A stretch of 64,000 bases of DNA from Rhizophagus irregularis (taxonomy: Eukaryota; Glomeromycota; Glomeromycetes; Glomerales; Glomeraceae), in NCBI RefSeq assembly GCF_026210795.1, contig NC_089430.1, positions 186,001-250,000 on the forward strand. Reading direction: 5' to 3'. A program made the translations under genes and the position numbers. Positions 8,899 through 57,890 of this stretch are shown here, one piece after another. Under the pieces are notes generated by a model. That model had not been told where the DNA came from. It saw only the letters and a list, made by a program, of their open reading frames with translations, and did not search any database. Each line of letters begins with the position of its first letter. The first letter of the stretch is position 1.

Positions 8899-11800
8899 TT
8901 AACGAATATGGGCGTGATGATCATGGAAGATACCGTCCCTATAATAAGGAGTTGTAGCAACGTGTCGATGATTATAATTTCGACACGGAGATGAATTTTG
9001 AGTGGAAACGTCTGGAGCAGGAGGAGGAGGAGCTCTTTTCTTTTGTCGTTGTCTATAAAATCTTTTTTTGTTTTTAGTAATGGATAAAGTACTTTCCCAT
9101 TGTTTAATTAAGGAAGCACGACGTGACCAAATAAGTGTATCAATTGAAGACATTAAAGTTGAAAAAAATTTCAAAAATAAAGAAAATCGTAATTTTTTGT
9201 CTTTAATATAATTATAAAAAATTAATGTAAGGTCACTCAGGACCAAATGATGTATAAGTAAATATCCTGGGTGTGATTGTGGTAAAATATCATCAAAGGT
9301 CGTGTTAAAAAGAGGAGAACTACGTATAGTATCATCCAAATCGAAACCTGCATCTTTAGTATTCGTTATAATAAGTTCTTGTAAATCATGAGCAGCTTGT
9401 GTTAATATATTAATAATTTGATTTGAGTGTTCCTTGCACAAGCCCACGTGTACATTATCATCGCGAGCATAAGCGCATTCAATACATGGTATACTACCGA
9501 GAGAGTACAGACGAGGATAATTACGTTGTTGTATATCAATTGTCAGATATATAAAATTACATTTTTTAATTCTGTTTCCTTGTTGTTTAGAAACTTTGAT
9601 GCTACACAGAGCATCATGATCATTAGAATTTAACCATTCAAGGTGTTTTTCATTTATTAAGAAAAAGATTAAGTCCCATATTAAAAAATTTGATTGCTTC
9701 AATTTTTGTCGTGGGCTGACGATGCCTGATTGCATACGCGTATTGAAAATATTAATACAATTGGCTGAGTCAGTATAAATGTTGATTCTACAATTGAAAG
9801 GAGATATTATAAGTGCCGTGAGTATACCCATACTTTCACTTTTGGAAGAGGAAGGGAAAAAGACAGTAGATCCTTTGAAGTTAATTCGCGGTGTAAAAGG
9901 TTGAACCTGGGTCCATCCGTATCCACTAATACTATGGGTAGTGCCAATATACTGGACGGAACCATCTGTATAAAATGTTAATAAAATTTCTGATTCTAGT
10001 TTTTTGGCACAAGATTTTAATTCTATTTTGAGATCTGGGTGGCAAATTAAAGCGTGATCAATATGATTATCTATATTATTCGAGGGTGAAGAAGTATTTG
10101 GTGTTAAAGTAACGTCTAAAGGACGTTGTGAAGAAGTATTTAAAGGGGATTTATCTATTTTTATAAAATGTTCATACGCAATATGTCTAAGAGTATGAAA
10201 AGGTTTCGTAGCTACTACGAAAGTTTGGTGATTATAATATTCTAATAACGATTTGTATTCAAAAGAGGATTTTTTAAAAATATTAAATAACAATAATTTT
10301 TGTGTTCTTATTGCAATAACGTATGTTGGACGAGTGTCATGCGGATAGTAGGAATGTAAAAGGCAGCCCTTACACGCAATAAGGCCAAGTAATTGTTTTT
10401 TGGGTGTTAAATTATTATCGTGATGGGTTTGTTGGGGTATAAAATGTTGTAAATAAGAAATTGAAGTTGAACGATCTGTATCTTGTGATAAAGTTTTTCC
10501 AAAAATAACTTGTTTTTGTACATTATTCCAGTGTATTGACCATTGTGATTTAGGTATAGTAATAGCTGGGATAATTGAAGGTGATTTGTGTGTTCTACTG
10601 ATGTCACACACAACATCGTTAAGAGGGTGGATTAAGCGTAAATTATTACTAAGTACATAATTGTCCGTTAGTTTTTTGTACCATGTTGGGATTGGTCCGC
10701 TGTAATTGTTATTATTGTTTCTTTTTACATCAGGCCATGAAAGTAAATAGTTTCCATCTGATGAAATGACCTGATCCATATAGATAATATTTTTGGCTTT
10801 TAAAGATTGAATGTCAGCGGTAGAAAGATCTGACATATAATCTCGTATAGGGGTATTTCCTCCTAAAATGTTGATATCAAATGTGAAATTAATTGAAAAT
10901 CCATAATGATTTATTAATCCTAACGCTTTAGTTAGGTAGGTAGGCTTTGCAATATGGTCCATGTATGTATTAATGTTGGACCGAATAGTAGAATACCAGA
11001 TTTCTAATATCGTGTTGTATATTTTCTGAATCGCTATTTCACGAAGTACCAGTGTATTAAAAAGTGCACCTAAAATATTAAGTTGTTATTTCATTTGTAT
11101 ATCAAAGAAGTTGTTAATAGATTGAAACATGTTGTTGTAAATAATATTATCCGCTGTGTTCGATGAAAGGTTCAAACATTGTTTGAATAATCTCTTTAAT
11201 GGTCCCATCAGAGACTGACATTGTTTTAGATTGAGGATCGTATGTTGAAAAATATACTCCAATTTTGGTATAACTATTTTGTTAATAATATATTGTATAT
11301 GGTGATGCGTCAATTTTTTGTTTTTCATGATGTTGTAATGAGCCATCACTATTTGTTTGCCCTTTTGTATCGTTTGTGTTTGTTTATCTAATGCGTTGAT
11401 ATATAAGCCCAAGATGCGTTCACCTTTATTGCGTGACGTGATGGGTATTTCATATGGTCGATTGTTAATTGTAAGGGTAATATTTGGTTGTTTGATGGAG
11501 CGATCATTTGTTAAAATTTTGTATTTATCCATATTAACTTTGATATTATTAAGATCGTAAAAGAATTGGCTATTGATAATTTTTCTTCGATTTGTAATTG
11601 CGAAGAGCCAAACCATGTAGTGTCGTCTAAGTAGTCCACTACAGAGATATCATATGTATGAATGATATCATTATCTTTGTGTTAACAATTTTTCTTTTGT
11701 ATCGCAAAAGTAGAATAGTGTGAATGAGTCAATTGATTGATACGATGAAACATCAGATCATAATATATATTCCAAAGGAGTGGTGAAACAACTTCGCCTT

Positions 11801-14348
11801 GGTCGATGCCTTGGAGAACTGCATAAGATGGCATCAAGCCGTTCGTGGTTATGATTTCATTATATCTATCAGTGAATAAATTAAGAAAAAAAGTGATAAT
11901 AATATCAGGGATTTTTGGCCGTTCTAGTGCCAATTTCAATAATCGTAAATCGACGTGATCGTATGCTTTTGATAAATCTTGTAATACGATCCAGATGGGT
12001 TTTTTCTTAATACGTGCGTGTTCTATTAGATGTTGTGTAATCATAAGTGGTTCTAAAGTTGATTGGCCTAAGACGTCCGCTTTGTTATTGAATTGCAAAA
12101 TTGGGTGTTTAGAAAGCGCTTGGTTTAACCTTGTCAAGATAATGTTGACTAACAATTTCCTGGGAATTTCCAAGAGAGTTATAGGCCTTGTATTGGTTAA
12201 TTTACAATTCCAATCGTGTAGTTTCGGTATCAGAAAGAGTAAAGCATGTTTCCATTTATTTGGAATCACTTTAAGTGTTATGCAAGCGTTAAATATTTTA
12301 ATGAGAATCATTAAAGTTTCCTCGTGTAAATGGGTGATGTCTTCGTATGTGATTTTAGAAGGACCTGGCGCTTTATTGTTGTTCAATTTTTTAAAAATGG
12401 AGGAAAGGTCCATTAAAGTAATTGGTTCAATTAAATTATTCCACCATTCTTCTTTGATATTTTGTAAAGTATGATCATAATGATCTTTCCAATCTTGTGG
12501 CAGGGAGTCTAGGTTCATAATATCCTTGATATTTGGAGGCCCCGCTTGATGTTGGAAATGTTTGATGGCTTCTTTTTCTATAATTTCTGGATTATTAGTA
12601 AATACATAATCACCTTTGTTGTCGATGAATGAAAGTCTATCAAGCACGATACGACGTGGTTTACGATTTAAAATAGAATTAATCATTTTGGTTTGATTGT
12701 GTTGTAAATTATCATTACGTTCTATAACATAAGAACTTATTTTGTCTGAAAGGTGTTTATCATACGCAGATTTGTAAGCGGTCTTCATTGTATGATATAA
12801 TTGGTAAATTTCATCCTTTGTTGATACAAAATTATAAGGAGTAACAGTTGATGGTAAAGTAATTGATAATTTGTTGAAGTCTAATAAGACTTTAAGGCGA
12901 GGGAGGTATTTCATCCATCCTTCGTAGTAGGTATTCCATATATGTTGTGGGATGTTATGTAAAGTTGATAATGTGGGTGTAAAGTTCAATTTGAAACGGA
13001 TTTTAATATGTTTGAGATTTAAAAATTGTTTGACTTGATATAAAAGAATCACGTGATTATTCATCTGTCGTAATTCTAAAGGCAAATCTATATTTGATGA
13101 TGTATTTGAGTTAATAGTTTTTTGTGGTATAATGTCCTCTTTGAGTTCGATTAATGTTTTCTCAAAGAGATCCCATTGTCAGTTTAAGGATGTTTTGTTA
13201 TTAATCTGTTGTGGTTCTTTAGAAAATCTTTTTTTGAATGTTGAGCAGCTACGATTCGTATATGAGGACCATAATTCTTTAGTCATTTGGTCGTATTTGA
13301 AGAATTTTTTAGCTTCTTCATTCCGCTTGTTGAAAGGAAGGACATTCATGAACTTATCAAATAGATGTTTGTTTCTTGAATCGAAAAAAGTTTTTTCTAA
13401 AAGGGTTATAACAATGTTATGATCAGTATTGAAAAAAGATTGTGGTATCGATTGTGTATAAGAATGAATTGATTGTTCTAATAGATATGTATTTCCAAAA
13501 TGATAGTCAATTCTATTTGTGTTATGAGTTGAATTGTTATCTAAAGATTCTTGGTGATATTTAATCATATCTTTGTATCCGTTATTTTTAAGTAAACGGA
13601 TGGAAGGATAATTCGGATCTGATTTATTTTTTGTTGTTACATTAAAGTCGCCGATAACAATGGCGTATGAATTTTTGGTGTTGTTGGATTTGGTAATTAA
13701 TTTGTTCAATTTGTCGACGCAAATAGCGCTGATTTTAGATTTGGTGATATCATTCTTAGGGCTAGATGGTAGGTAGCAGCAAGTCACATTCAGTTGTTTT
13801 GATTTCTTGAAACCGAAGATGAGATTGATGATACGTCCTTCGAGAAATTCTGTATGTTGTAAATGTTTTTCCATTTTATCGGTAATCATGATGGCGACTC
13901 CTGAGCCTTTATTTGAACCAGAAGTGTCATGAACTATGTATATAAAATTGTTAGGTAAAGTAGGATGTTTGTGTTTGTTAATAATAGTGTTTGATTGATC
14001 TCCAAAGAGACCAGTTTCTGATAGACCAAGAATATCAAAATTGTGTCCGACAAAATAATTAATGATGTCGTTAAGTTTGTTGTTGAAGGCTGTTTGAATA
14101 TTAATGCTGCCTATTTTGATATAATCGATAAAAAAATTTTTATTAATATTTTCTTGATTGATCACGTGCAAATTTGTAATGTGTTCTTCATTGATCAAGT
14201 GATCGGAAGTTTGTGAGAAAGAATGTGAAGTATTAGGAAAGGGGTCAGATATATTTAAGTTGTTGTATGACATTTTTAAAGTAAATTGAAAATTGAAATG
14301 TGTGTAAACCAAAAAATTGGGATAAAAACAATAAGGGGAATCAAACAT
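8899..14348 (-). pseudogene. LINE ORF2: endonuclease-RT-RNase H polyprotein, disrupted
   Basis: One reading frame of about 1,800 codons is broken at four places: TGA at 13179-13181, TAA at 11682-11684, a frameshift near 11590-11620, and TAA at 11086-11088. Frame continues across each stop. The first segment (14348-13179) has APE-type endonuclease motifs: IGSINIQT, LGLSETG, VIGDFNV, and TDHN near its end. The second segment has reverse transcriptase motifs NTRPITLL, DLSKAYDHVD and GIDQGEVVSPLLW. The catalytic YLDD lies just past the TAA at 11682. The last segment (10962-8899, 687 codons) holds RNase H with TFYTDGS, the glutamate in SKSESMG and IYTDSANC, followed by a Cys/His-rich tail. All catalytic residues I can place are still present, so the damage is recent relative to the substitutions. 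Confidence 0.9.
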
Positions 14349-14389
14349 TATGTCCGATTTCTTTATGATTATAAAGAATAAATCACAAT

Positions 14390-16508
14390 TTAAACCTGAG
14401 GTTTATTACCGCAATTGAATGGGTTAAGTATGAAGCTTGATTGTCCTGAGGTATCTTGTTCAGACGCTTCATATGTGTTTTCAATGATGCCTGTATCGGA
14501 GACCTCCCCAGATTCAGTATAATATTCGTCTGAGAGTGGGAGTGCATTACTGTCTTCCATGGCCGGTTCGGCAGATGGTTGGATGAACCATTTTTTCACC
14601 TCTTTTAGAGGAGTTTTTTTGTATGGGATACTAGTACGCTTGGCTTTTCTGACTGGTTGTAGTCGAAGGGGTGAGGTTTGTGATACTTGTAAGGTGTCAA
14701 TGAGTGTTTGCATTTGTGTCATCAAGCTTTTGTGTTGATTTTCTAGACTACCTTGTCTCTGTGTGAGCAAGGCTATGTTAGTGTCAATCGTGGTCAATTG
14801 TTGATGATGTGATGAGTATTAATCCGTGAACGTTTGGTGGGAACCTTGTAGTACGTTAACATGATTTGTTAAAGTAGTAATTTGTTGTTCCATATGTGCG
14901 ATTTTGTTTAGGATTTCTTAAGGAATTTGTTGTTGAGTCCAGGATGAAGTAGACTTTTGATGTGTCCCGTCCAGGTTTTTCTTAATGTTATTATAGGATT
15001 GTTTTTGTTTTCCTTGTGTATCAGGTTGAGGGCGAGATTGTATGTTTGATTTACCAGAATTATTATTGGCTGGAGAGTCTTATGACGTGGTTATAATTTT
15101 GTCTAGTTGTTTCATTGATCATTATGCATTCCTTGTTACGCATGATGAAACGTTTTTTGAAAATTTTTCGTTCATTTTTGTCTAAGGTGAAATCTGTACT
15201 AGTACAGTTTTTATATTCGTGTATGTGACTACCATATACATTACATGTTTTTTTGGTATTTGTGTAAGGAAAAATAAAGATTGTATATTCTCCAAATTTT
15301 GTACCCGTGATTGTAGTGTAATCTTTTTTAATATCATCAGAGTGAACGTATATAAATGCGTTCTTGAAGAATGATGAGCGTGAGGTTTGAGTAAATGTAC
15401 ACGTTCGTCCCTTTAGATGTGTAACTAAAGGGCTTAAATCTTTTGCGTTCGTGTTTAAAGGTAAACCAGTGATTTTATAGAAAGCAGAGGTTTGTTGTGT
15501 GTATATTGGATGTTTCGGATTGCCTGGTAGGATTCTGGCTACTGAGTCCTTAATAACTAAGCACCAGTCTTGTTCTAATAGGTAATCTGCCGCTGCTTTG
15601 TCTTCAAAGCTAATTATTAGTTATTTATAGCTCAGCTTGATAAAAATTGGTTTGTCATTTTTGTTCCGGTTTTGGATTTTTTGAGGTAGTTTTCTAATTT
15701 CTTTGTAAGTTGCGATTCTTTTTCCCGTTACGTTAGTTATTTGTTTTATTAATAATGTGACATCGTAATTGATAGGGATATCTAATATTTTGATGATCGT
15801 GTTATCTTGTAATTGGAGTTTACGTTCAATTAAGGTATCTATATTTTGTTGTGTATATTCATAAATTTTAACATTTTGAAGTTCTGGAGGTGATGTTTTG
15901 ATAAGGTATGACAATTTGTCTTTAGTCGACACAGATATCATATAAAATTTGAATGTCATTTTTTTGAGGGATCTAACTTTAATAAAGTCTTTGTCTCCGA
16001 CAAAGATGTTGTTGAGTTTTTGTAAAATTTCTTTGTCTGTAAGTTTTGGCGGAAAACTATCTCGTGGGATAAACCCTTCAAAAGAAGTTTGTGCTTGTAT
16101 ATTTGAGGCTGAGAATATGTTGTCGATCATGGGGATTTCCTCGATTGGTGGTGGATTACCGTTAATGGATGTAGATCCTTCTAAAGGTTGTTGTGTATCA
16201 TTAATCGTTTCAATGATTGGTGCAGTTGGTAAATGGGCGTTGAAGTCACGTGTTTCTGAGGAATTTTTCCCAGAGACTTGCTCCACGGAGGAGGAAGTTC
16301 GAGAAGGTAAAGTCAAAGCAGGCTCGGCTGTCTTCTGACTATTTTCGTTGTTTGTTGTAGATATGTTCGACATTTTTCTATTTCTATTATTATTAACGTT
16401 AGGAGCGAAAGTTCTATATATATCTTCTTTGTCGGTAGAAAAATGATATGTTTTTTCGATATTTTTTAGAATTTTTTGAGAAAACTTGGAACGAGTGTTT
16501 TTACTCAT
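14390..16508 (-). pseudogene. LINE ORF1: RNA-binding protein with zinc-knuckle-like motif and coiled coil, disrupted
   Basis: The first 295 codons (16508-15621) begin MSKNTRSKFSQK and are basic, then Ser/Pro-rich, then fold-like. After a TAA at 15621-15623 the same frame continues to about 15064. This part contains an RRM-like stretch (KITGLPLNTNAKDLSPLV) and CNVYGSHIHEYKNC, a CCHC knuckle in which the second cysteine appears to have become tyrosine. More stops follow, then an open segment at 14797-14390 with a coiled coil (LLTQRQGSLENQHKSL) and an acidic tail. LINE ORF1 proteins coat the element RNA; this copy is non-functional. The start is taken at the first ATG, 144 bp from the element's 5' end. 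Confidence 0.8.
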
Positions 16509-17000
16509 GTAAATAATGTAAACAAGAGTGTAGAGTCCAAAAAATCACAAATTAGATCAGGTTTGTATGTAGAAAAAATAGTTTATATAGTATATTTCTT
16601 TAGCTAAAAAAATGGTCAGAGTGATCATTCTCCAGAGTTTCCCGAAGTTTCCGAAATTGATTCTGTTTGTGATTATTTCGATTACGTCCTTCCTTTTTTG
16701 TACATCACATGATTATAAATTGTCCAATAATCTTTAAATATTTTAATGACAAATGATCAAATAACAAAGGACGCAAATGACAGCCCAATCATTTGGAATT
16801 TGTCATTTCACGAATAATTCAAATGCCAAATGCCAAATGAAGGGGTGTCATTTGACCAAATGACTCCTAATCCGAAAAATGGTCAAATGACCAGGTCATT
16901 TCTGAATACTGTGTTAAACAGAAAATCCTATTCGTCTGGCTTAATGCACCATTTTAATCACCCTTATTAACTTTCTATTATATAATTTTTTATTTCCTAG

Positions 17001-41400: not shown

Positions 41401-41904
41401 AAAGATAAATCAAAATTTTTTAGCTTATAAAATCTGAAACATAAATTTTATGCAGTGTGAAAAAAAAAAGTATTTTAGTTTTTAATTTTTATAAATCTTG
41501 TATAGTGTAAAAAAAAAGTGTTTATTTTTTATAAATTGTGAAAAAAAAGTATTGGAAAAAAAATGTCGAATAATAAAGTATTATGTATATGTTCCAAATG
41601 TAAAAAAAAAGGATCAGATAATATTGGTAAATATGTGCATCCTACTACCAAATGGAGACATATTAAAAATGCAAAAAAGAATTATAATTTTAGCGACAAC
41701 GATGATGATAGCGACGATCACAGGTCGAACAGATGTCATTGTCGCAAAATTTGCCTGGAATTTTTCTGGCAAATTGAGAATTATCCCGGTAAATTGAGGT
41801 AAATTGTGTTACAATTTTGGGATAATGGAGGTCTTACAATTTGGCAAATTTTGTCAAAATGGCGACAATCCTACACAATTCCTAATTCAAATGTTGAGAA
41901 ATTT

Positions 41905-42180
41905 TTCAGAAATTTTAGTCAAATTTTTAGTAATTTTATGCAAACGTAATGAAAATTGTGGTGAATTTAGTCAAAATTTTTAGTAATGTTATGTAAACGT
42001 AATGAAAATTGTGGTGAATTTAGTCAAATTTTTAGTAATTTTATGCAAACGTAATGAAAATTGTGGTGAATTTAGTTAAATTTTTAGTAATTTTATGCAA
42101 ACGTAATGCAAATTGTGGTGAATTTAGTCAAATTTTTAGTAATGTTATGTAAACGAAGTGCAAATTGTGGTGAATTTTTA
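41905..42180. repeat. Five tandem copies of a roughly 56-bp unit
   Basis: The unit reads roughly TTTTTAGTAATTTTATGCAA then ACGTAATGAAAATTGTGGTGAATTTAGTCAAA. Copies differ by a few bases and small indels. It lies in the left part of the 4.2-kb inserted element and is non-coding. Confidence 0.85.
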
Positions 42181-42609
42181 GCAATATTAGGCCAATGTTA
42201 TGTAAATTGTGATGAATTTTTTGTAATGATACGTAAATTGCAAATTTGAAATAAAAACTTTCCATTGTTGCACAATTTACCGGAAAAATTCTGGTAAATT
42301 GTGCATTTTTTTGTCAAATTTTGGAAAAATGGACCATTTTACCAAAATTTAACTTTCAAATGCTAGAAAATTTTTAGCAATTTTAGACAATTGAGTGACA
42401 ATTGTTTGACAATTTTTGGACAATTGAGTGTAAATGTAATATTTTTAAGACAATTTCTGACAATTGAGTAATAATTAAGCAACAATTTTGAGTAATTTTA
42501 TACAAATTTTATAACAATTTATTGATTCTAATTTTATTAACAATTTATCTAATTATTCAATTATAACGTGTAATTAAGTACAATAATGTTAAAAAAAACA
42601 AACATCAAA

Positions 42610-44184
42610 AAAAAACAAAAAGTTTCGAAGGTTAATCTTCGAAACTCACCAAGCAAGGAGCCAAAGAACTATTATCTTGTTACAATAACCTACAAAAAAA
42701 GAAAACCATTCAGTTAGAATGTTTCTTAAAGATAAAACAGAAGTTTCGTAACGAAACGTACGAAACTTACCATTTCAGAAGCCATATCCAATACCTGAAC
42801 GTAAAGTAATGGCTTCTATTCAACAATGGTTTTACGAGATTCATGTTACCTAAGTTAGCTTCCCAGATATCCCGAACCTACAAAAAAGAAAAGGAACGTT
42901 AGTAAACGGTTCCTAATAAAAAAAAATTAAGTTTCATGATATTTGTCATGAAACTCACCATTTAAACTGAAGTTTCGAAGTTATACTTCGAAACCTACAC
43001 GTTATCCAAACCCAAGTTCGAATCTGGAGGGGAGGGACCTACAAAAGAGAATAAAGAAATGTTAATAAAACATTTCTTTAAAAAACAAACTGAAGTTTCG
43101 CAACGTTTTTTTTGTTGCGAAACTTACCAAAGTCAAGTATCCCGCTCGAACCTACAAAAAAAAAATAGAAAAGAAACGTTAAAAAACGTTTCTAATAATA
43201 AAAAAAAAACACGGTAAGTTTCGTTGCGAAACTTACCATTTTCACTTTCCAATGATACCCGAATTGGAGACCTACAAGAAATGAAAAAGTAAAAGAAACG
43301 TTAGAACGTTTCTTAATTAAAAAAAACAAAAAAGATAAGTTTCGTTGATGAAACGAAACTTACATTTTTCCGTTTCGGAATCCTAGAGCACCGGAACCTA
43401 CAAAAAAAGTAGAAGAAACGTTAGAGAACGTTTCTTAATTAAAAAGAAAATAAAATATTTTAAGTTTCGTTAAAACGAAACTTACATGTTAACGTTTCGG
43501 AATCTTGGAGTACCAGAACCTACAAAAAAAGTAAAAGAAACGTTAGAACGTTTCTTAATTAAAAAAAATATAATATAATAAGTTTCGTTAAGTTTCGTTA
43601 AAACGAAACTTACATTTTCCGTTTCGGGAATCCTGGAGCACCGGAACCACCGAACCTACAAAAAAAGTAAAAGAAACGTTATAGAACGTTTCTTAATTAA
43701 AAAAATATAATATAAGTTTCGTTAAAACGAAACTTACATTTCCGTTTCGGCCATTAATGAATATTCATGCTGAAACTTGGCGTTCTCCTGAACCTACAAA
43801 AAAAAGTAAAAGAAACGTTAGAACGTTTCTTAATTAAAATAAAAATATAAATATAATTAAGTTTCGTTAAACTTACATTTCCGTTTCGGAATCGAGGAGG
43901 GCCATTAATGAATATTCATGTGAAACTTGGCGTTCTCCTGGACCTACAAAAAAAAAGTAAAAGAAACGTTAGAACGTTTCTTAATTAAAATAAAAATATA
44001 AATATAAGTTTCGTTAAACGAAACTTACATTTTGCCGTTTCGGAAACCTGGAGTACCGGAACCTACAAAAATAAAGTAAAAGAAACGTTAAAACGTTTCT
44101 TAATAAAGAAAAAAATAAAAAAAAAATAGTTTCGTAAGATAACAAACTTTACCCGACTTCTCCAAATGTAACGATAATTGCCAT
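42610..44184 (-). other. Array of eleven intron-like double-hairpin units between short exon-like blocks
   Basis: Read on the minus strand, a unit of about 80-90 bases repeats eleven times. Each starts with a donor-like GTAAGTTTCG (or GTGAGTTTC) whose bases form the left arm of a hairpin closed by CGAAACTT. Each then has a second hairpin of GAAACGTT...AACGTTTC type and ends TTTTTTGTAG, a good acceptor. Between units lie blocks of about 24-125 bases, several alike (GTTCCGGTGCTCCAGGATTC type). An ATG at 44184 followed by 32 nt and GGGTAAAG could be a first exon. Stems differ between units but stay paired, for example TTTCGTA/TACGAAA versus TTTCATG/CATGAAA, and GAAACG/CGTTTC versus GAAATG/CATTTC. 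Concatenated blocks do not stay in one frame, so coding is doubtful. It could be an intron array, a structured RNA, or transposon subterminal repeats. Confidence 0.6.
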
Positions 44185-44194
44185 ACCAACGGGA

Positions 44195-44310
44195 AATGGG
44201 AAAGGTGAGGGGAAGGACGAGAGAGAGGGAAGTGGGGAGAGAGAGGGAAGGAGAAACGAGAGGGAGGGTGACGGGAAAATGGTGAGAAGAAGGGAAGAGC
44301 GAAATAAACT
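44195..44310. repeat. Purine-only GA/GGGA tract
   Basis: About 110 bases are nearly all A and G on the plus strand (GGGAAAGG, GAGAGAGGGAAG and similar). It sits just upstream, on the minus strand, of the ATG at 44184. It may form triplex or act as a pyrimidine-rich promoter tract on the other strand. Beyond it are short CTGCGG triplet runs at about 44344-44366 and 44407-44423. Confidence 0.6.
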
Positions 44311-44439
44311 AAATTAGTTTTTTTTTTAAACTCTAAAAAAAAACTGCGGCTGCGGCTGCGGCTGCAATAGTTTATTTTTAGTATTTTTAGGTTAGTTAAA
44401 AAATGAACTGCGGCTGCGGCTGCAGTTTAACCAAGTTCA

Positions 44440-44710
44440 TGTCACGTGATACACGTGACATGTATTTTATATAAATAGGGGGCTTTTCCCCGAAACTTTT
44501 TTTTTTCTTTTTTTTATAATTTTTTTAATTTAATGATAGATGTATATATATACTTATATATATACATATATATATATCTATCTAATAAACTTTACGAAAA
44601 GCCCCTCCTCTGTAAACAGGTAGAGGCCATAAAGTACCTATAGGGGGAGAGCCATTGCTGCTCCCTCCGCCTGTTTATAGTGACAAAAAGAGGGAGTCTT
44701 CAGTAGTAAG
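44440..44710. promoter_or_regulatory. Possible promoter: CACGTG pair, TATA-like box and downstream hairpins
   Basis: TCACGTGATACACGTGA forms a short palindrome containing two CACGTG boxes. It is followed by TTTTATATAAATAGGGG, which is TATA-like on both strands. Downstream, GGGGGAGAGC and GCTGCTCCCTCC can pair. Such a dense arrangement is unusual in this A+T-rich DNA. No gene start can be tied to it, so the call is tentative. Confidence 0.25.
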
Positions 44711-44839
44711 GTTTAGTATTAAATTAAACAACATATCACAACACATCGTGTTGTTACATTGTTAATATTAACAATGTGTTTAATGTTAAATAATGCGTTT
44801 AGAATATAAATATTATAAATTTAATAATGTCCGTAATTT

Positions 44840-45780
44840 ACAAATAAATAAAAATTATCATCAATTTTAATGTAATTAAGTGTAATTCTACGTTATCCAA
44901 TGTAATTGTAATATTTTTTTGTGTTTTTTAGTGCAATTCCGCGTTTTTTAGTGCAATTCCGCATTTTCTAGCATAATGTTACATTTTCCAGCATAAATAA
45001 AAATTATCCTAATAATTTTAATGTAATTAAGTGTAATGCTACGTTATTCAGTGTAATTGTAGTATTTTTTTGTGTTTTTTAGTGCAATTCTGCATTTTTT
45101 AGTGCAATTCCACATTTTCTAGCATAATGTTACATTTTCCAGTATAACGCGAAATTTTCTAAAAAATATGATAATTGTGGTACTTTTTAGTGTAATGCTA
45201 CATTGTCTAGTGTAATTGTGGTATTTTTTAGTTCAATTCCACATAATCTAGTATAGTGCTACATTTTTCAGTATAATTTAATGTAATGTAGAATTTTCCA
45301 AAAAATGTGATAATTGTGATACTTTTTAGTGTAATTTGGTGAAATGCTACATTTTCCAGTGTAATGCTATATTATTGAGCATTTTCCAAAAAAAAATTGT
45401 AACATTTTAACATTCTGACGAAAATGAAACATTTGACCAAAAAAACATAAAATTTGCTGAAAATATGCAACATTTGACAAAAAATATAGAATTTTCATAA
45501 AAAATGCACCATTTGCTAGAAAATTGGAATATTTGACAAAATTTGATTTTAATTGACAATGTTACAACAATTTTATGAAATGTTGTTACAATGATATCAC
45601 ATTGGAGATAAAATGTGGCATTTTCATAAAAATGCACCATTTGCAAGAAAATTGGAACATTTGACAAAAAAAAAGCAAAATTTGATTTTAATGACAATGT
45701 TATAACAATGTCACAAAATGTTACGAAATGTTACATTTGAGATATAATGTAGCATTTTCCCAAAATTTCATAAAATTTGC
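44840..45780. repeat. Satellite of TTTTCCAGTGTAATGCTACA-type units
   Basis: Short units of about 15-25 bases (GTGCAATTCCGCATTTTCTA, CATAATGTTACATTTTCCAG and relatives) are organised into a larger block of about 150 bases present at least twice (about 44841-44995 and 44997-45140) and then more diverged. It fills the right third of the 4.2-kb element. No coding sequence. Confidence 0.75.
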
Positions 45781-48639
45781 TAAATCGGACAATGTTGTAA
45801 CAATGCTATTCCAAAAAATTGCTCAGCGTAATGCAGCATTTTCCACAATTTCCCACCATTTTCCAGAAAAATGTGGAATTTGCATTTTTTGAATTTTGGA
45901 CAATGGTGCCCCTTCGACCTGTGGATGACGATAGCGATAATGATGATAATAATAATAATAATAACGATCATGATGACGATAATAATGATAACGATAATGA
46001 TGATAATAATAACGACCACGACAAAGACCACGATGACGATAATGATCACGATGACGACCACGATAATGATGGCGATAATGATGATAATAATAACGACTAC
46101 GACGATAATAATCATGATGATAATGATGTAGAATATAAACAGTAAGTATTAAAAAGAATATTTCTGTTATTCGTTAACTAATAATGATTATTAAATGTTT
46201 TATATTATATTTTAATTGTAATGATGATAGGAGGAATGAACTTGATAATAGATCTTCAAGATCTCCTACTCCCGTTTTCATAGTAATTGATGATGATTGC
46301 TATGATGACAATCAAGAACACCATGACAATCGTGACAATTCTGATGAAAAAACAGAATCATCAACTGCAACTGAATCTGAATCTTATGAAAGTTTATATG
46401 ATTCTTTTGATGATAATAATACGTTTGAAGTATTACAAAAAGGACTATATAGTAGCGATAATGAATCATCTGATGACGGTATTAATTTAACAGAAGATAA
46501 TATACGCAATATTTATTTATTTATTTAAATTATTTATTATTAATGCAAATACATATTATTTGTAGGGTCTAATATTGTAGGGTCTAATATTAATAGTATT
46601 AATGATGAAGTTGCTAGAGGTTTACGTCTTCTTGAAGTAAAAACTCGACAAAATATTACTGATGCAGCCTTTAAAGAAATTGTTACTGCAGCTAGTGGTA
46701 ATTTTACAAGTCAATATACACTAATAAAAACACTTAAAAATATAGTTCCTATTAAACCAATTTGGGTTGATATGTGCATAAATTCATGCTGCGCTTTTAC
46801 TGGTAATTTGAAAACATTAAATAAATGTACTTATTGTAAAGCTGAACGTTATCAAGAAGGAGGACGACCAAGAGCACAAGTAGCATATTTTTCAATTCAG
46901 AATCGATTTAAAATTCAATATCAAGATCCAACACGCGCAAAACAATTACGTTATCATTCTGAATATATTACCAGAGAAGATGATGGTGCTATTGGCAATG
47001 TATTTGATGGCTCACAATATAAATATCTATCCCAAGAGGGATATTTTCAAGATGATCGTGATATTGTACTTTTAGGTTCTGTTGACGGTTATCAACTATT
47101 CAAACAAAAATGTAATGATTGTTGGATAGTTTTATTTATTAATGCTAATTTGCCACCCCATCAATGTGTAAAAAAAGAAAATTTACTTATTACTTCAATC
47201 ATCCCGGGTCCTAAAGCTCCAAAAAATTTTAATTCTTTTATGAAACCAATAGTTGAAGAATTATGCTTATTAAATGGTAATTTTAATTACATACATTATG
47301 ATAAAACTTAATGATAAAAAAAAATATATTAAAAATAATTGTAAATTTGTAAATTTGTAGATGGTGTTGAATGCTATGATGGTGCTACGAATGAGAATTT
47401 CCTCCTAAAAGTTACGGTACTTTCCTGGTCTGGAGATACTCCTGGATTGTCAAAACTTGCTTGCTTAACTGGACATAATTCATACATGGCATGTCGTTAC
47501 TGTGATCTTCGAGGGATATATAATAATCATGTATATTATCCTACAACACCACCATCAATTGAAACATATAAAACTTATAATCCATCAGATTTACCAAAAA
47601 GAACTCATAGAGATTATAAGATAAGAATTGAACAAATAACGACAATACCGCCATCAAGAACACACGATACATTAATTTCTGATTTAGGTAAATAATAAAT
47701 CTATTGCAACATAATTTTTTTTACTATAAAATTAATAATTATTATTTTGAAATAGGTGTTACAGGACGTAGTGTTTTATTAGAAATAGAAACAACTCGAT
47801 TTCCTACATGTTTTCTAATAGATATTATGCATTTGTTTTATGAAAACATCGCATTATATATGTTAAAACATTGGATGGGTTGTTTTTTTAAAGATTCTAT
47901 TCTTAATGATCAGCTATATGTAATTAACAACAAACAATGGACTGAGATTGGGATTGAAATGGAAACTATAAGAAAATCCATTCCAACTGATTTTGGTCGA
48001 TCACCACGAAATATCTTACATCACCATAATGGTTACAAAGCAGAGGAGTGGGCTTCATGGATAACCTTATATTCTTTACCTTTATTAAAAGATCGTTCGC
48101 CAGAAAAATATCTTAAAGGTTGGTCCTTTTTTGTTAAAGCTGTTCAGCTTTGTCATGATCAAGAAGAAATAAGGAAATTATTATTGCTATTTTATCAACA
48201 TTATAAACGGTATATATATTACAACATTTATTTATTTATTTGAATCTTTATTGTTTTTTTATTAAAATAATATTATTTTTAGTTATTATTATCAGTTTTT
48301 GGCTGCCCGACTAAGTGTAATGAAAGTATGCTTTCATTATATTTTACATGTTGCTGATAGCATTCAGGATACTGGACCATGTTGGTCAACATGGCAGTTT
48401 CCTATGGAACGTACTTGTGGAATGTTACAACCGCTAGCAAAATCACGTCTCCATCCATATAAAAATCTAACAAACAATGTATATTTGTTAGAATTATTTA
48501 ATAATTTGTGTTATTTTAGAAAATTTTATGATCAGATTTTTCCTTCTATACCTTGTAAAGAGTATAAAGAGCACCTGGTTTATACAAATGAGAATTATGA
48601 AGAAGAATTTCAATCCCTATAAAAAATATATATACAGTT

Positions 48640-51790: not shown

Positions 51791-52275
51791 TTTTGAATTT
51801 AGTATTATCAATCGGACTTTGAACTTAAAAATTAAACAGTATTAACAAAAATTCTTGTGAATTTTTTAATAATTGTGATTTTACATCAGTGAGTTTTAGG
51901 GTAGTACATATTAGCAGATACTAGTATTGTTTGATGCTTTAAAGTGTAGAAAAACTTACTCTATCACACGTCAAATAAATAAAAATTGGCTGATTTTTAG
52001 CTATATTTGTCCGATTTGTGACTTTTTACAGCCGTATTACCAATTCTTAACCACATTTTTCAGTTTTTTCACTATACAAAAAAATTGTATATACATTATG
52101 AAATATATATTTTTATAAAAAATTATATTGTAATATTGAATTAAAATTTAAAAAATATTTTATTAAGCAATATTAAATAAAAAACTAATCTTAAATAATT
52201 AAATTTTAAACAAAATACATTAAGAATATAAATTTACTTGTAATTTAATGTAATACGCACAATTATAAAAAATTA

Positions 52276-53420
52276 ATAACTCCACAAATATTAACTGTGC
52301 CTTCATTAAAATAAATATTCAAGTAGATTCTAAGCTGCTGAACAATTTTTAATTAATAAAAGAAGTCGATTTACTTTGGCTAAAGTGCTTAAAATACGCT
52401 CTGAAGTAACAAAATGGAAAAAATAAAATTCGTAAATGAGTACCGTTGTGAAAATCGTGAATAACTCCACAAATATTAACTGTACCTTCGTAAAAATTAA
52501 TATCCAAGTAGATTTTGACCTGCTGAACAACTTTCAATTAATAAAAGAAGTCGATTTACTTTGACTAAAGTGCTCAAAATACGCTCTGAAGTGACAAAAC
52601 GGAAAAAAATAAAATTCGTAAATGAGTACTGTTGTGAAAATCGTGAATAACTCATCAAGTATTAACTGTACCTTCGTAAAAATTAATATCCAAGTAGATT
52701 TTGACATGCTAAACAACTTTCAATTAATAAAAGAAGTCGATTTACTTTGACTAAAGTGCTCAAAATACGCTCTGAAGTGACAAAACGGAAAAAAATAAAA
52801 TTCGTAAATGAGTACTGTTGTGAAAATCGTGAATAACTCATCAAGTATTAACTGTACCTTCGTGAAAATTAATATTCAAGTAGATTTTGACATGCTAAAC
52901 AACTTTCAATTAATATAAGAAGTTGGTTTACTTTGGATAAAGTGCTCAAAATACGCTCTGAAGTGACAAAATGAAAAAAATAAAAGTCGGGAATGAGTAC
53001 TGTTGTGAAAATTGTAAATAACTCATCAAGTATTAACTGTACCTTCGTGAAAATTAATATCCAAGTAGATTTTAACCTGCCGAACAACTTACAATTAATA
53101 TAAGAAGTTGATTTACTTTGGCTAAAGATCTCAAAATACGCTCTGAAGTGACAAAATGAAAAAAATAAAAGTCGTGAATGAGTACTGTTGTGAAAATTGT
53201 AAATAACTCATCAAGTATTAACTGTACCTTCGTGAAAATTAATATCCAAGTAGATTTTAACCTGCCGAACAACTTACAATTAATATAAGAAGTTGATTTA
53301 CTTTGGCTAAAGATCTCAAAATAAGCTCTGAAGGTAAAAAAATTTGTAACTTAATACTACTGTATAATATAAAAAATGTAAATAATTCCAAAAATATTAA
53401 CTGTACTTTTATGATCTTAA
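52276..53420. repeat. Six to seven tandem copies of a roughly 185-bp unit
   Basis: The unit contains CAAGTATTAACTGTACCTTC, AATATCCAAGTAGATTTTGA and GAAGTCGATTTACTTTGGCT. Copies start at about 52276, 52460, 52644, 52830, 53025 and 53205, with a degraded copy near 53383. Minus-strand open frames of about 60-70 codons recur once per unit because the repeat lacks stops there. They are not genes. A related array in opposite orientation lies at 56926-57890. Confidence 0.85.
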
Positions 53421-56925: not shown

Positions 56926-57890
56926 AATCTCCACTTTGGACAAATGAAATCAACTTTATTTATTAATTGAAAGTTGTCCAGGCGGGTTAAAAGCACTTGA
57001 ATATTAATTTTCATGAATGTAGATGTAGTGCATAGAGAAGATTGCATTTTTCTTGATGATATTAACTCTCTTTTCTGTTTTTTTTTAATTTAGAGCGTAA
57101 TATCTCCACTTTAGACAAATGAAATCAACTTCATTTATTAATTGAAAGTTGTTCAGGCGGGTTGATTCTACTTGAATATTAATTTTCACGAACATAGGTG
57201 TAGTGCATAGAGAAGATTGCATTTTTCTTGATGATATTAACTCTCTTTTCTGTTTTTTTTTTAATTTAGAGCGTAATATCTCCACTTTGGACAAATAAAA
57301 TCAACTTCATTTATTAATTGAAAGTTGTTCGGGTGGGTTGATTCTACTTGAATATTAATTTTCATGAATATAAGTGTAGTGCGTAGAGAAGATTGCATTT
57401 TTCTTGATGATATTAACTCTCTATCTTTTCTGTTTTTTTAATTTAGAGCGTAATATATCCACTTTGGACAAATGAAATCAACTTTATTTATTAATTGAAT
57501 GTTGTTCAGGTGGGTTGATTCTACTTGAATATTAATTTTCATGAATGTAGGTGTAGTGCATAGAGAAGATTGCATTTTTCTTGATGATATTAACTCTCTT
57601 TTCTGTTTTTTTTTTAATTTAGAGTGTAATATCTCCACTTTGGACAAATAAAATCAACTTCATTTATTAATTGAAAGTTGTTCGGGTGGGTTGAAACCAC
57701 TTGAATATTAATTTTCATGAATGTAGGTGTAGTGCTTAAAGAAAATTGCATTTTTCTTAATGATATTCTGTTTTTTTAATTTAGAGCATAATATATCTAC
57801 TTTGGACAAATGAAATCAACTTCATTTATTAATTGAATGTTGTTCAGGCGGGTTGATTCTACTTGAATATTAATTTTTATAAGATTTCGT
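56926..57890. repeat. Six tandem copies of a roughly 176-bp unit
   Basis: Each unit contains TATCTCCACTTTGGACAAAT, GAAATCAACTTCATTTATTAATTGAAAGTTGTTC and TTGAATATTAATTTTCATGA, ending TTTTTTAATTTAGAGCGTAA. Copies begin at about 56931, 57101, 57280, 57458, 57632 and 57796. Minus-strand frames in it are repeat artefacts. In reverse complement it resembles the unit at 52276-53420. Confidence 0.85.

Follow-up and report, generated by a model that had tools for sequence, protein, structure and literature searches.

CMC-EnSpm transposons are reported as expressed in Rhizophagus irregularis, in which much of the repeat sequence is unclassified (available sections of PMC11075540 and PMC8647823), and uncharacterised repeats are put at 24% of the genome in the same portion of PMC8647823; the word intron has 0 occurrences in the main texts of these two papers. 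Repeated, structured introns are known as introners, many families of which bear marks of DNA transposition, and as fungal introner-like or symmetrical introns (PMC9860276 and PMC8469720, in their available parts); the available part of the introner survey PMC9860276 does not name Rhizophagus. Non-coding transcripts with dozens of tandem introns are exemplified by the SNHG14-type host gene (SNORD115/116; excerpts of PMC11608373). In yeast, short spliceosomal introns contain zipper and downstream stems, yet structure is depleted at canonical splice sites and the useful stems are placed away from them, with a gap of at least 10 nt required between the donor and the start of a zipper stem and of at least 20 nt between its end and the branch site (PMC12350175, available text). 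R. irregularis itself has SP7-like genes, whose products contain tandem repeats and which have an intron feature in common (PMC11333574, available text).

Here we describe an array of structured, intron-like units in a 64-kb stretch of R. irregularis DNA (hereafter the window). Its carrier resembles non-autonomous CACTA/CMC-EnSpm elements in its terminal inverted repeats beginning CAC, its 3-bp target-site duplication and its same-ended relative encoding tnp2 (PF02992), but its interior is a long structured intron-like array and not a deleted transposase gene. The likeness to SNHG14 as excerpted in PMC11608373 lies in a non-coding transcript with many tandem introns, in our case a predicted one; the arrays differ in having no Rfam snoRNA, in bearing structures on the splice signals themselves and in being transposon-borne. 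With the introners of PMC9860276 and PMC8469720 they share repeated structured introns, but in the arrays it does not appear to be the single intron that moves, and the units stand in tandem inside larger elements. RNA stems in short introns are common to the arrays and to the yeast cases of PMC12350175, whereas in the arrays the stems cover the donor and surround the branch site. Searches of the open-access literature on R. irregularis and on fungi turned up no account of such arrays.

The array occupies window positions 42588-44152 on the minus strand and comprises 12 tandem units of about 90 nt, each of which bears the signals of an intron's donor, branch site and acceptor (Table 1). An initial annotation had described eleven intron-like units with double hairpins; a regular-expression parse recovers 11 (44152-42690, minus strand, 81-121 nt long) with blocks of 24-107 nt in between, and a covariance model, seeded (A1, R1) with 18 introns of which four come from the window array, finds 12 units in the window at E<0.001, all inside the array and on the minus strand, the additional one being 42649-42588. 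Most units open with GTAAGTTTCG or a near variant, whose pairing partner is a downstream CGAAACTT, so that the stem runs from intron position +1 to +3 onward. Hairpin 2 is GAAACG...CGTTTC, with YTAAC at or beside the 3' side of the loop, and the units close with a T-run followed by GTAG, which gives predicted intron borders of GTAAGTTTC...GTAG on the array strand. The donor hairpin, second hairpin, T-run and GTAG ending are therefore as the annotation had stated them, the stem variants that it quoted are found in the array, and the intron-type signals that it claimed lie in register with the hairpins. Fold z-scores of the window's 11 units range from -1.8 to -6.5. The lone donor hairpin at 42998-42967 could be an unused donor or a 32-nt mini-intron. 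Other arrays of the family have leaders comparable to that of the window array before their first donor.

Table 1. Positions in the window of the array-bearing element, its termini and its intron-like units
Feature	Position	Strand	Basis
Entire CACTA-like element without transposase, array-bearing, 4,205 bp	41719..45923	-	Sharp ends common to many copies; exact terminal-repeat pair
5' terminal inverted repeat CACAGGTCGAAGGGGCACCATTGTC	45899..45923	-	Termini read
3' terminal inverted repeat, inward CACAGGTCGAACAGATGTCATTGTC	41719..41743	+	Termini read
Target-site duplication ATC, 5' side	45924..45926		Flank reading
Target-site duplication ATC, 3' side	41716..41718		Flank reading
Tandem 52-bp repeats, 3' part of element	41914..42177		Repeat listing
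C/T-rich leader, 95% pyrimidine, shortly before first donor	44209..44268	-	Putatively promoter or 5' UTR-like
Unit 1, weak donor hairpin	44063..44152	-	Regex, covariance model, fold
Unit 2, intron-like	43944..44028	-	Regex, covariance model, fold
Unit 3, short donor stem	43794..43876	-	Regex, covariance model, fold
Unit 4, intron-like	43656..43737	-	Regex, covariance model, fold
Unit 5, intron-like	43520..43613	-	Regex, covariance model, fold
Unit 6, intron-like	43398..43485	-	Regex, covariance model, fold
Unit 7, intron-like	43272..43363	-	Regex, covariance model, fold
Unit 8, intron-like	43152..43236	-	Regex, covariance model, fold
Unit 9, donor stem GCAAC/GTTGC, branch stem GAAATG/CATTTC	43039..43127	-	Regex, covariance model, fold
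Additional donor-type hairpin upstream of unit 10, ends CAG	42967..42998	-	Sequence
Unit 10, donor stem TTTCATGA/TCATGAAA	42878..42958	-	Regex, covariance model, fold
Unit 11, TAACT in loop, branch stem imperfect	42690..42770	-	Regex, covariance model, fold
Unit 12, donor hairpin and degenerate 3' half	42588..42649	-	Covariance model, E=1.8e-5

The CACTA-like home proposed for the array proved correct: the array is the interior of a CACTA-like element with terminal inverted repeats, a 3-bp duplication and flanks that are contiguous elsewhere, and it sits about 0.9 and 1.8 kb from the element's ends. The terminal repeats start CAC (CACAGGTCGAA at each end, about 25 bp, imperfect), and searches with both flanks place sharp boundaries at 45923 and 41719. 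Among the matches listed for the 5' flank, all 5 of 5 places have the 3' flank adjoining (C3 twice, C11, C13, C18), the 3' flank alone occurs at 5 further places among the matches listed, and one contiguous empty site that was read is uninterrupted sequence with one base altered in the duplication. The CAC repeats, the 2-3 bp duplications with empty sites and the tnp2 relative that mark a CACTA/CMC-like non-autonomous element are all present. The insertion host is itself a tnp2 element, in that window positions 46544-47311 (plus strand) match PF02992 at 1.7e-14, while a Pfam search with a second frame of the host repeat (47692-48243, plus strand) gave no match; the array element is nested in another tnp2 CACTA-like element. 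Elsewhere the window contains a LINE-like element (8899-16544, minus strand) whose frames include an endonuclease (PF03372) and a reverse transcriptase (PF00078), tandem 185-bp and 176-bp repeats (52275-53333 and 56927-57877), each with a double-length period, and kinase-like and Sel1 genes.

The terminal pattern of the carrier family occurs at 63+68 places in the genome, and the 100 listed of these 131 places include 36 terminal-repeat pairs, of which 23 span 4.0-5.5 kb, 6 span 8.0-8.8 kb and 7 are of other sizes; sequences were fetched for 15 of the 23 short pairs and 2 of the 6 pairs of about 8 kb. Both of the latter have the window element's ends: in one (L061, 8.2 kb) an 821-aa ORF matches PF02992 at 1.4e-9, and in the other (L062, 8.4 kb) this protein, as judged by eye, is spread over shorter frames. 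The array unit was looked for in these two tnp2-type relatives and found in neither. The 8-kb relatives have extra frames beside the tnp2 gene (L061 4601-6895), charged-residue-rich by eye, whose sole Pfam match is sub-threshold (WDCP). The 42 parsed array loci comprise 21 within an exact terminal pair, 14 outside one and 7 on contigs beyond the listed places; the 21 paired loci lie in elements of 4.2-5.5 kb in 15 cases and of 6.4-15.1 kb in 6, and these six longer elements, which were read in part, may carry transposase (L016 and L017, frames listed by ORF). Since 15 of the 21 paired loci are in short elements and none of the units is in L061 or L062, the array is mostly cargo of a short transposase-less class.

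A search for other genomic copies had been suggested in the initial annotation, and the array family turns out to be genome-wide. In the 146,748,485 bases of the genome (32 contigs), a DNA search gave more than 150 matches, and 347 units (327 distinct, median 89 nt) were parsed at the 42 loci, which include the window's own; because some of the 63 units that end GTAA or TTAA are early regex stops and not lost acceptors, these unit lengths are approximate. Some copies do have an acceptor of GTAA instead of GTAG. The donor-hairpin pattern GTAAGTTTCGN{3,30}CGAAACTT occurs at 336+352 places, self-palindromic places being scored on both strands, as compared to 0 for the reversed control pattern, which argues that the units are more than chance. 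Contigs 1 and 2 hold 33 pattern clusters (about 2.3 per Mb), from which we extrapolate roughly 340 array clusters for the whole genome, a figure that includes self-palindromic matches and misses arrays without an exact pattern match. Among 16 loci sampled outside the fetched family, from 100 of the 688 pattern places, 15 have at least four model matches (E<0.01) within 1.6-2.4 kb and one (L055) has a single match; even of the 10 with a single pattern match, 9 are nonetheless arrays. An introner in the usual sense, a single mobile intron in host genes, is rejected on this count, at least four units being found instead at 15 of the 16. The carriers also vary: the arrays L063-L065 lie in an element with the ends CATCAGCAAGTTT...AAACTTGCTGATG, L064 and L065 showing both ends together with the 2-bp duplications TA and AG, and L066 and L067 lie in a 3.5-kb element with the ends CACTGGTC and 3-bp duplications TGA and GCA, so that, with three distinct end types, at least three DNA transposon families, as defined by ends, carry arrays. 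Upstream of its array, L065 (about 1950-2300, array-strand numbering) has a run of hairpins that are all of the branch type, donors and clear blocks being absent.

The signals of U2-type introns, namely a GT donor, YTAAC, a T-rich tract and AG, are present at canonical spacing. YTAAC, sought from position 40 on, occurs in 235 of the 327 distinct introns, its median distance being 67 nt to the donor and 23 nt to the intron end, and it mostly stays at the 3' side of a loop whose length varies. Of 130 model matches, 91 start GTRAG, and the branch motif falls in hairpin 2 for 80 and in the donor hairpin for 2, a count made with a model that was seeded with introns of that build. T content is 50% in introns and 26% in blocks. 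Against single-base shuffles the mean fold z is -5.2 for 40 sampled introns as compared to -0.14 for 60 sampled blocks; structure is confined to the introns and absent from the blocks between. Four introns of the kinase-like host gene in the window, defined via its continuous reading frame, give z of -0.6 to +0.6, and one of that gene's introns has CTAAC about 20 nt before its AG. A yeast-type zipper stem does not describe the units, in which the donor stem starts at +1 to +3 and the branch site lies within the second hairpin.

The initial annotation had also claimed compensatory change in the stems and proposed a covariation test on units and homologues. In A1 (18 hand-picked introns), 88.1% of cells are paired and double changes occur in 11 of 23 pairs; the covariation score is 0.251, whereas shuffling gives 0.153 (0 of 500) and sliding no more than 0.090. 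In A2 (130 model matches, 21 loci), an alignment fitted to the structure, all 23 of 23 pairs show double changes. Double-changed cells number 360, as compared to 107 after shuffling, and the score of 0.344 compares with 0.147 after shuffling and no more than 0.065 after sliding; these controls, like all those for covariation here, are shuffles or slides that leave the relatedness of copies unmodelled and so fall short of a full phylogenetic null. Both scores exceed their shuffles, but the further pair types in A1 do not (24 against 23.4 shuffled, 228 of 500). A fit-free test, anchored only on the GTTT and AAAC of the outer stem and comparing the inner bases, gives 89.2% paired for the family (305 of 327 introns) against 76.9% shuffled (maximum 79.2% in 500). 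For a set of 22 loci, most of them from outside the family (L012 and L016, at least, are members), it gives 89.3% against 75.4% (maximum 79.2% in 1000) over 99 of 120 donors, short-loop cases being dropped uncounted. The distinct stem solutions include GCAAC/GTTGC, GCAAT/ATTGC, GAAGC/GCTTC, GAGGC/GCCTC, GTAAC/GTTAC, GCAGC/GCTGC and CATGA/TCATG.

Compensatory change is thus seen across units and divergent arrays, but recent single changes resemble neutral decay. Mispaired cells are G-U in 86 cases and A-C in 77 in the family, and 42 and 29 in the other 22 loci; in the model-fitted alignment the figures are 85 and 35 for helix 1 and 44 and 47 for helix 2. The near equality of G-U and A-C suggests that recent one-sided changes carry no clear RNA-strand bias and resemble CpG decay, and close copies differ largely by CG to TG/CA, as judged by eye. 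As proof of RNA-level selection, the G-U versus A-C asymmetry is not decisive (86/77; 42/29). Since the recent changes look like neutral decay of dead copies, any constraint would have acted on the source copies that spread, and we infer that selection acted on these during the spread of the transposon.

In other arrays (L029, L033, L035, L037, L038, L044, L048, L056, L064) the donor is enclosed by a different fold, in which the last bases of the block and the first bases of the intron form a stem around it, for instance at the borders TTTTGAAG|GTAAACCTTCAAAA, GGAATTTCGAAG|GTAAACGAAATTCC and GAACAGAATTTTGAAG|GTAACCTTTGAAATTCTGTTT. Among the 173 candidate donors of array loci, where related copies were counted singly and not removed, 12 have border stems of at least 11 bp, as compared to 0 of 46 for the remainder of the window, 0 of 5 for L061 and L062 and none in five block shuffles; for stems of at least 8 bp the counts are 26 of 173, 0 of 46 and 0 of 5, with 1-5 of 112-128 per block shuffle. 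That two unlike folds each place the donor in a hairpin argues for a shared function.

The blocks do not appear to encode protein. The annotation had noted that they keep no single frame, and this agrees with three-frame translations of 15 spliced arrays, which show no stable frame, and with block lengths, a multiple of three in 50 of 175 (blocks of 12-60 nt after AG, without inner GTAG). An exon-only query built from L007/L008/L010-type blocks found block-by-block matches in the genome and no spliced copy. An Rfam scan of the window at the gathering threshold returned no family, and a relaxed scan of the array gave 7 weak matches, no snoRNA among them. An intronic snoRNA host gene is rejected, Rfam finding no box C/D or H/ACA RNA in the array, as is a group I or group II self-splicing intron, whose catalytic core was sought with Rfam without a match.

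The reading toward which we lean on balance, drawing on the anatomy, carrier, copy number, covariation, absence of a coding frame and confinement of structure to introns as read from the sequence, is that a transposase-less CACTA-like transposon carries, as its cargo, a non-coding minigene built of structured spliceosomal introns. Transcription of the minigene would begin in the C/T-rich leader and yield an RNA in which tiny exons, about a dozen in number and mostly 21-56 nt long, alternate with spliceosomal introns of about 90 nt. In nearly every intron the U1 target (the 5' splice site) would be folded into a hairpin and the U2 target, the branch site YTAAC, would be displayed in the loop of the second, with the U-rich tract and GUAG next. 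The hairpins probably gate or order splice-site recognition where any donor could join any acceptor, and such gating may favour local, ordered joining among near-identical sites. Alternatively, the excised introns might be the product, as in SNHG14 (PMC11608373, as excerpted). Besides the GTAA acceptors of some copies, the failure to find a spliced copy with the exon-only query and the near-equal G-U and A-C mispairs, other considerations speak against a minigene: hairpins over donor and branch site should hinder splicing, and it is not evident what such a transcript would do for a transposon whose ends are all that it requires. From the depletion of structure at yeast splice sites (PMC12350175, available text), the array stems would be expected to slow or gate splicing. 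A bolder proposition, which we put forward tentatively as a possibility short of being probable, is that several DNA transposon families of this arbuscular mycorrhizal fungus share an undescribed kind of RNA gene, with mini-exons and double-hairpin introns in tandem and its splicing signals kept in hairpins by compensatory evolution, in which the introns or the act of splicing, and not the exons, would be the functional product, e.g., a gated spliceosome-engaging RNA serving the transposon.

Other origins have to be weighed against the minigene. That the array is a product of mutation without selection, its palindromes maintained by template-switch correction of quasi-palindromes and tandem duplication as junk satellites from a real gene's intron, seems to us unlikely. 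The near-equal G-U and A-C mispairs, the many copies decayed by eye and the evident duplication of units are as this would have it, but it sits poorly with two hairpin positions in register with the splice signals, with a YTAAC that mostly holds the 3' side of the loop as loop length varies, and with a second donor geometry that crosses the block-intron border. In En/Spm the TnpA sites are binding sites for a transposon protein, and palindromic internal repeats that work at the DNA level in this manner, their likeness to introns being coincidental, would suit palindromic, tandem units in a CACTA-like element with a tnp2-bearing relative. We consider this quite improbable: the arms change yet stay paired, unlike a fixed binding site; donor, branch site, T-tract and AG retain polarity and spacing; the sampled blocks between units do not fold; and the window array lies about 0.9 and 1.8 kb from its element's ends. 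Decay of a protein-coding gene whose mini-exons had been duplicated, for example an SP7-like tandem-repeat effector, would draw on the tandem repeats and intron feature reported for SP7-like genes (available text of PMC11333574), but the lack of a stable frame in the 15 spliced arrays and the 50 of 175 block lengths leave it very little credence; an intact SP7-like gene with repeated exons is rejected, the spliced frame not being open across arrays.

Hairpin-array elements could hide in the 24% of the R. irregularis genome that PMC8647823, in its available part, assigns to uncharacterised repeats. If the arrays are spliced, they would supply natural introns by the hundred in which donor and branch site are hidden, a ready test of how the spliceosome deals with structured sites, and these introns would bear on how a donor chooses the next acceptor among a dozen near-identical ones. 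Transposase-less DNA transposons would then, contrary to expectation, gain an RNA-level trait under selection.
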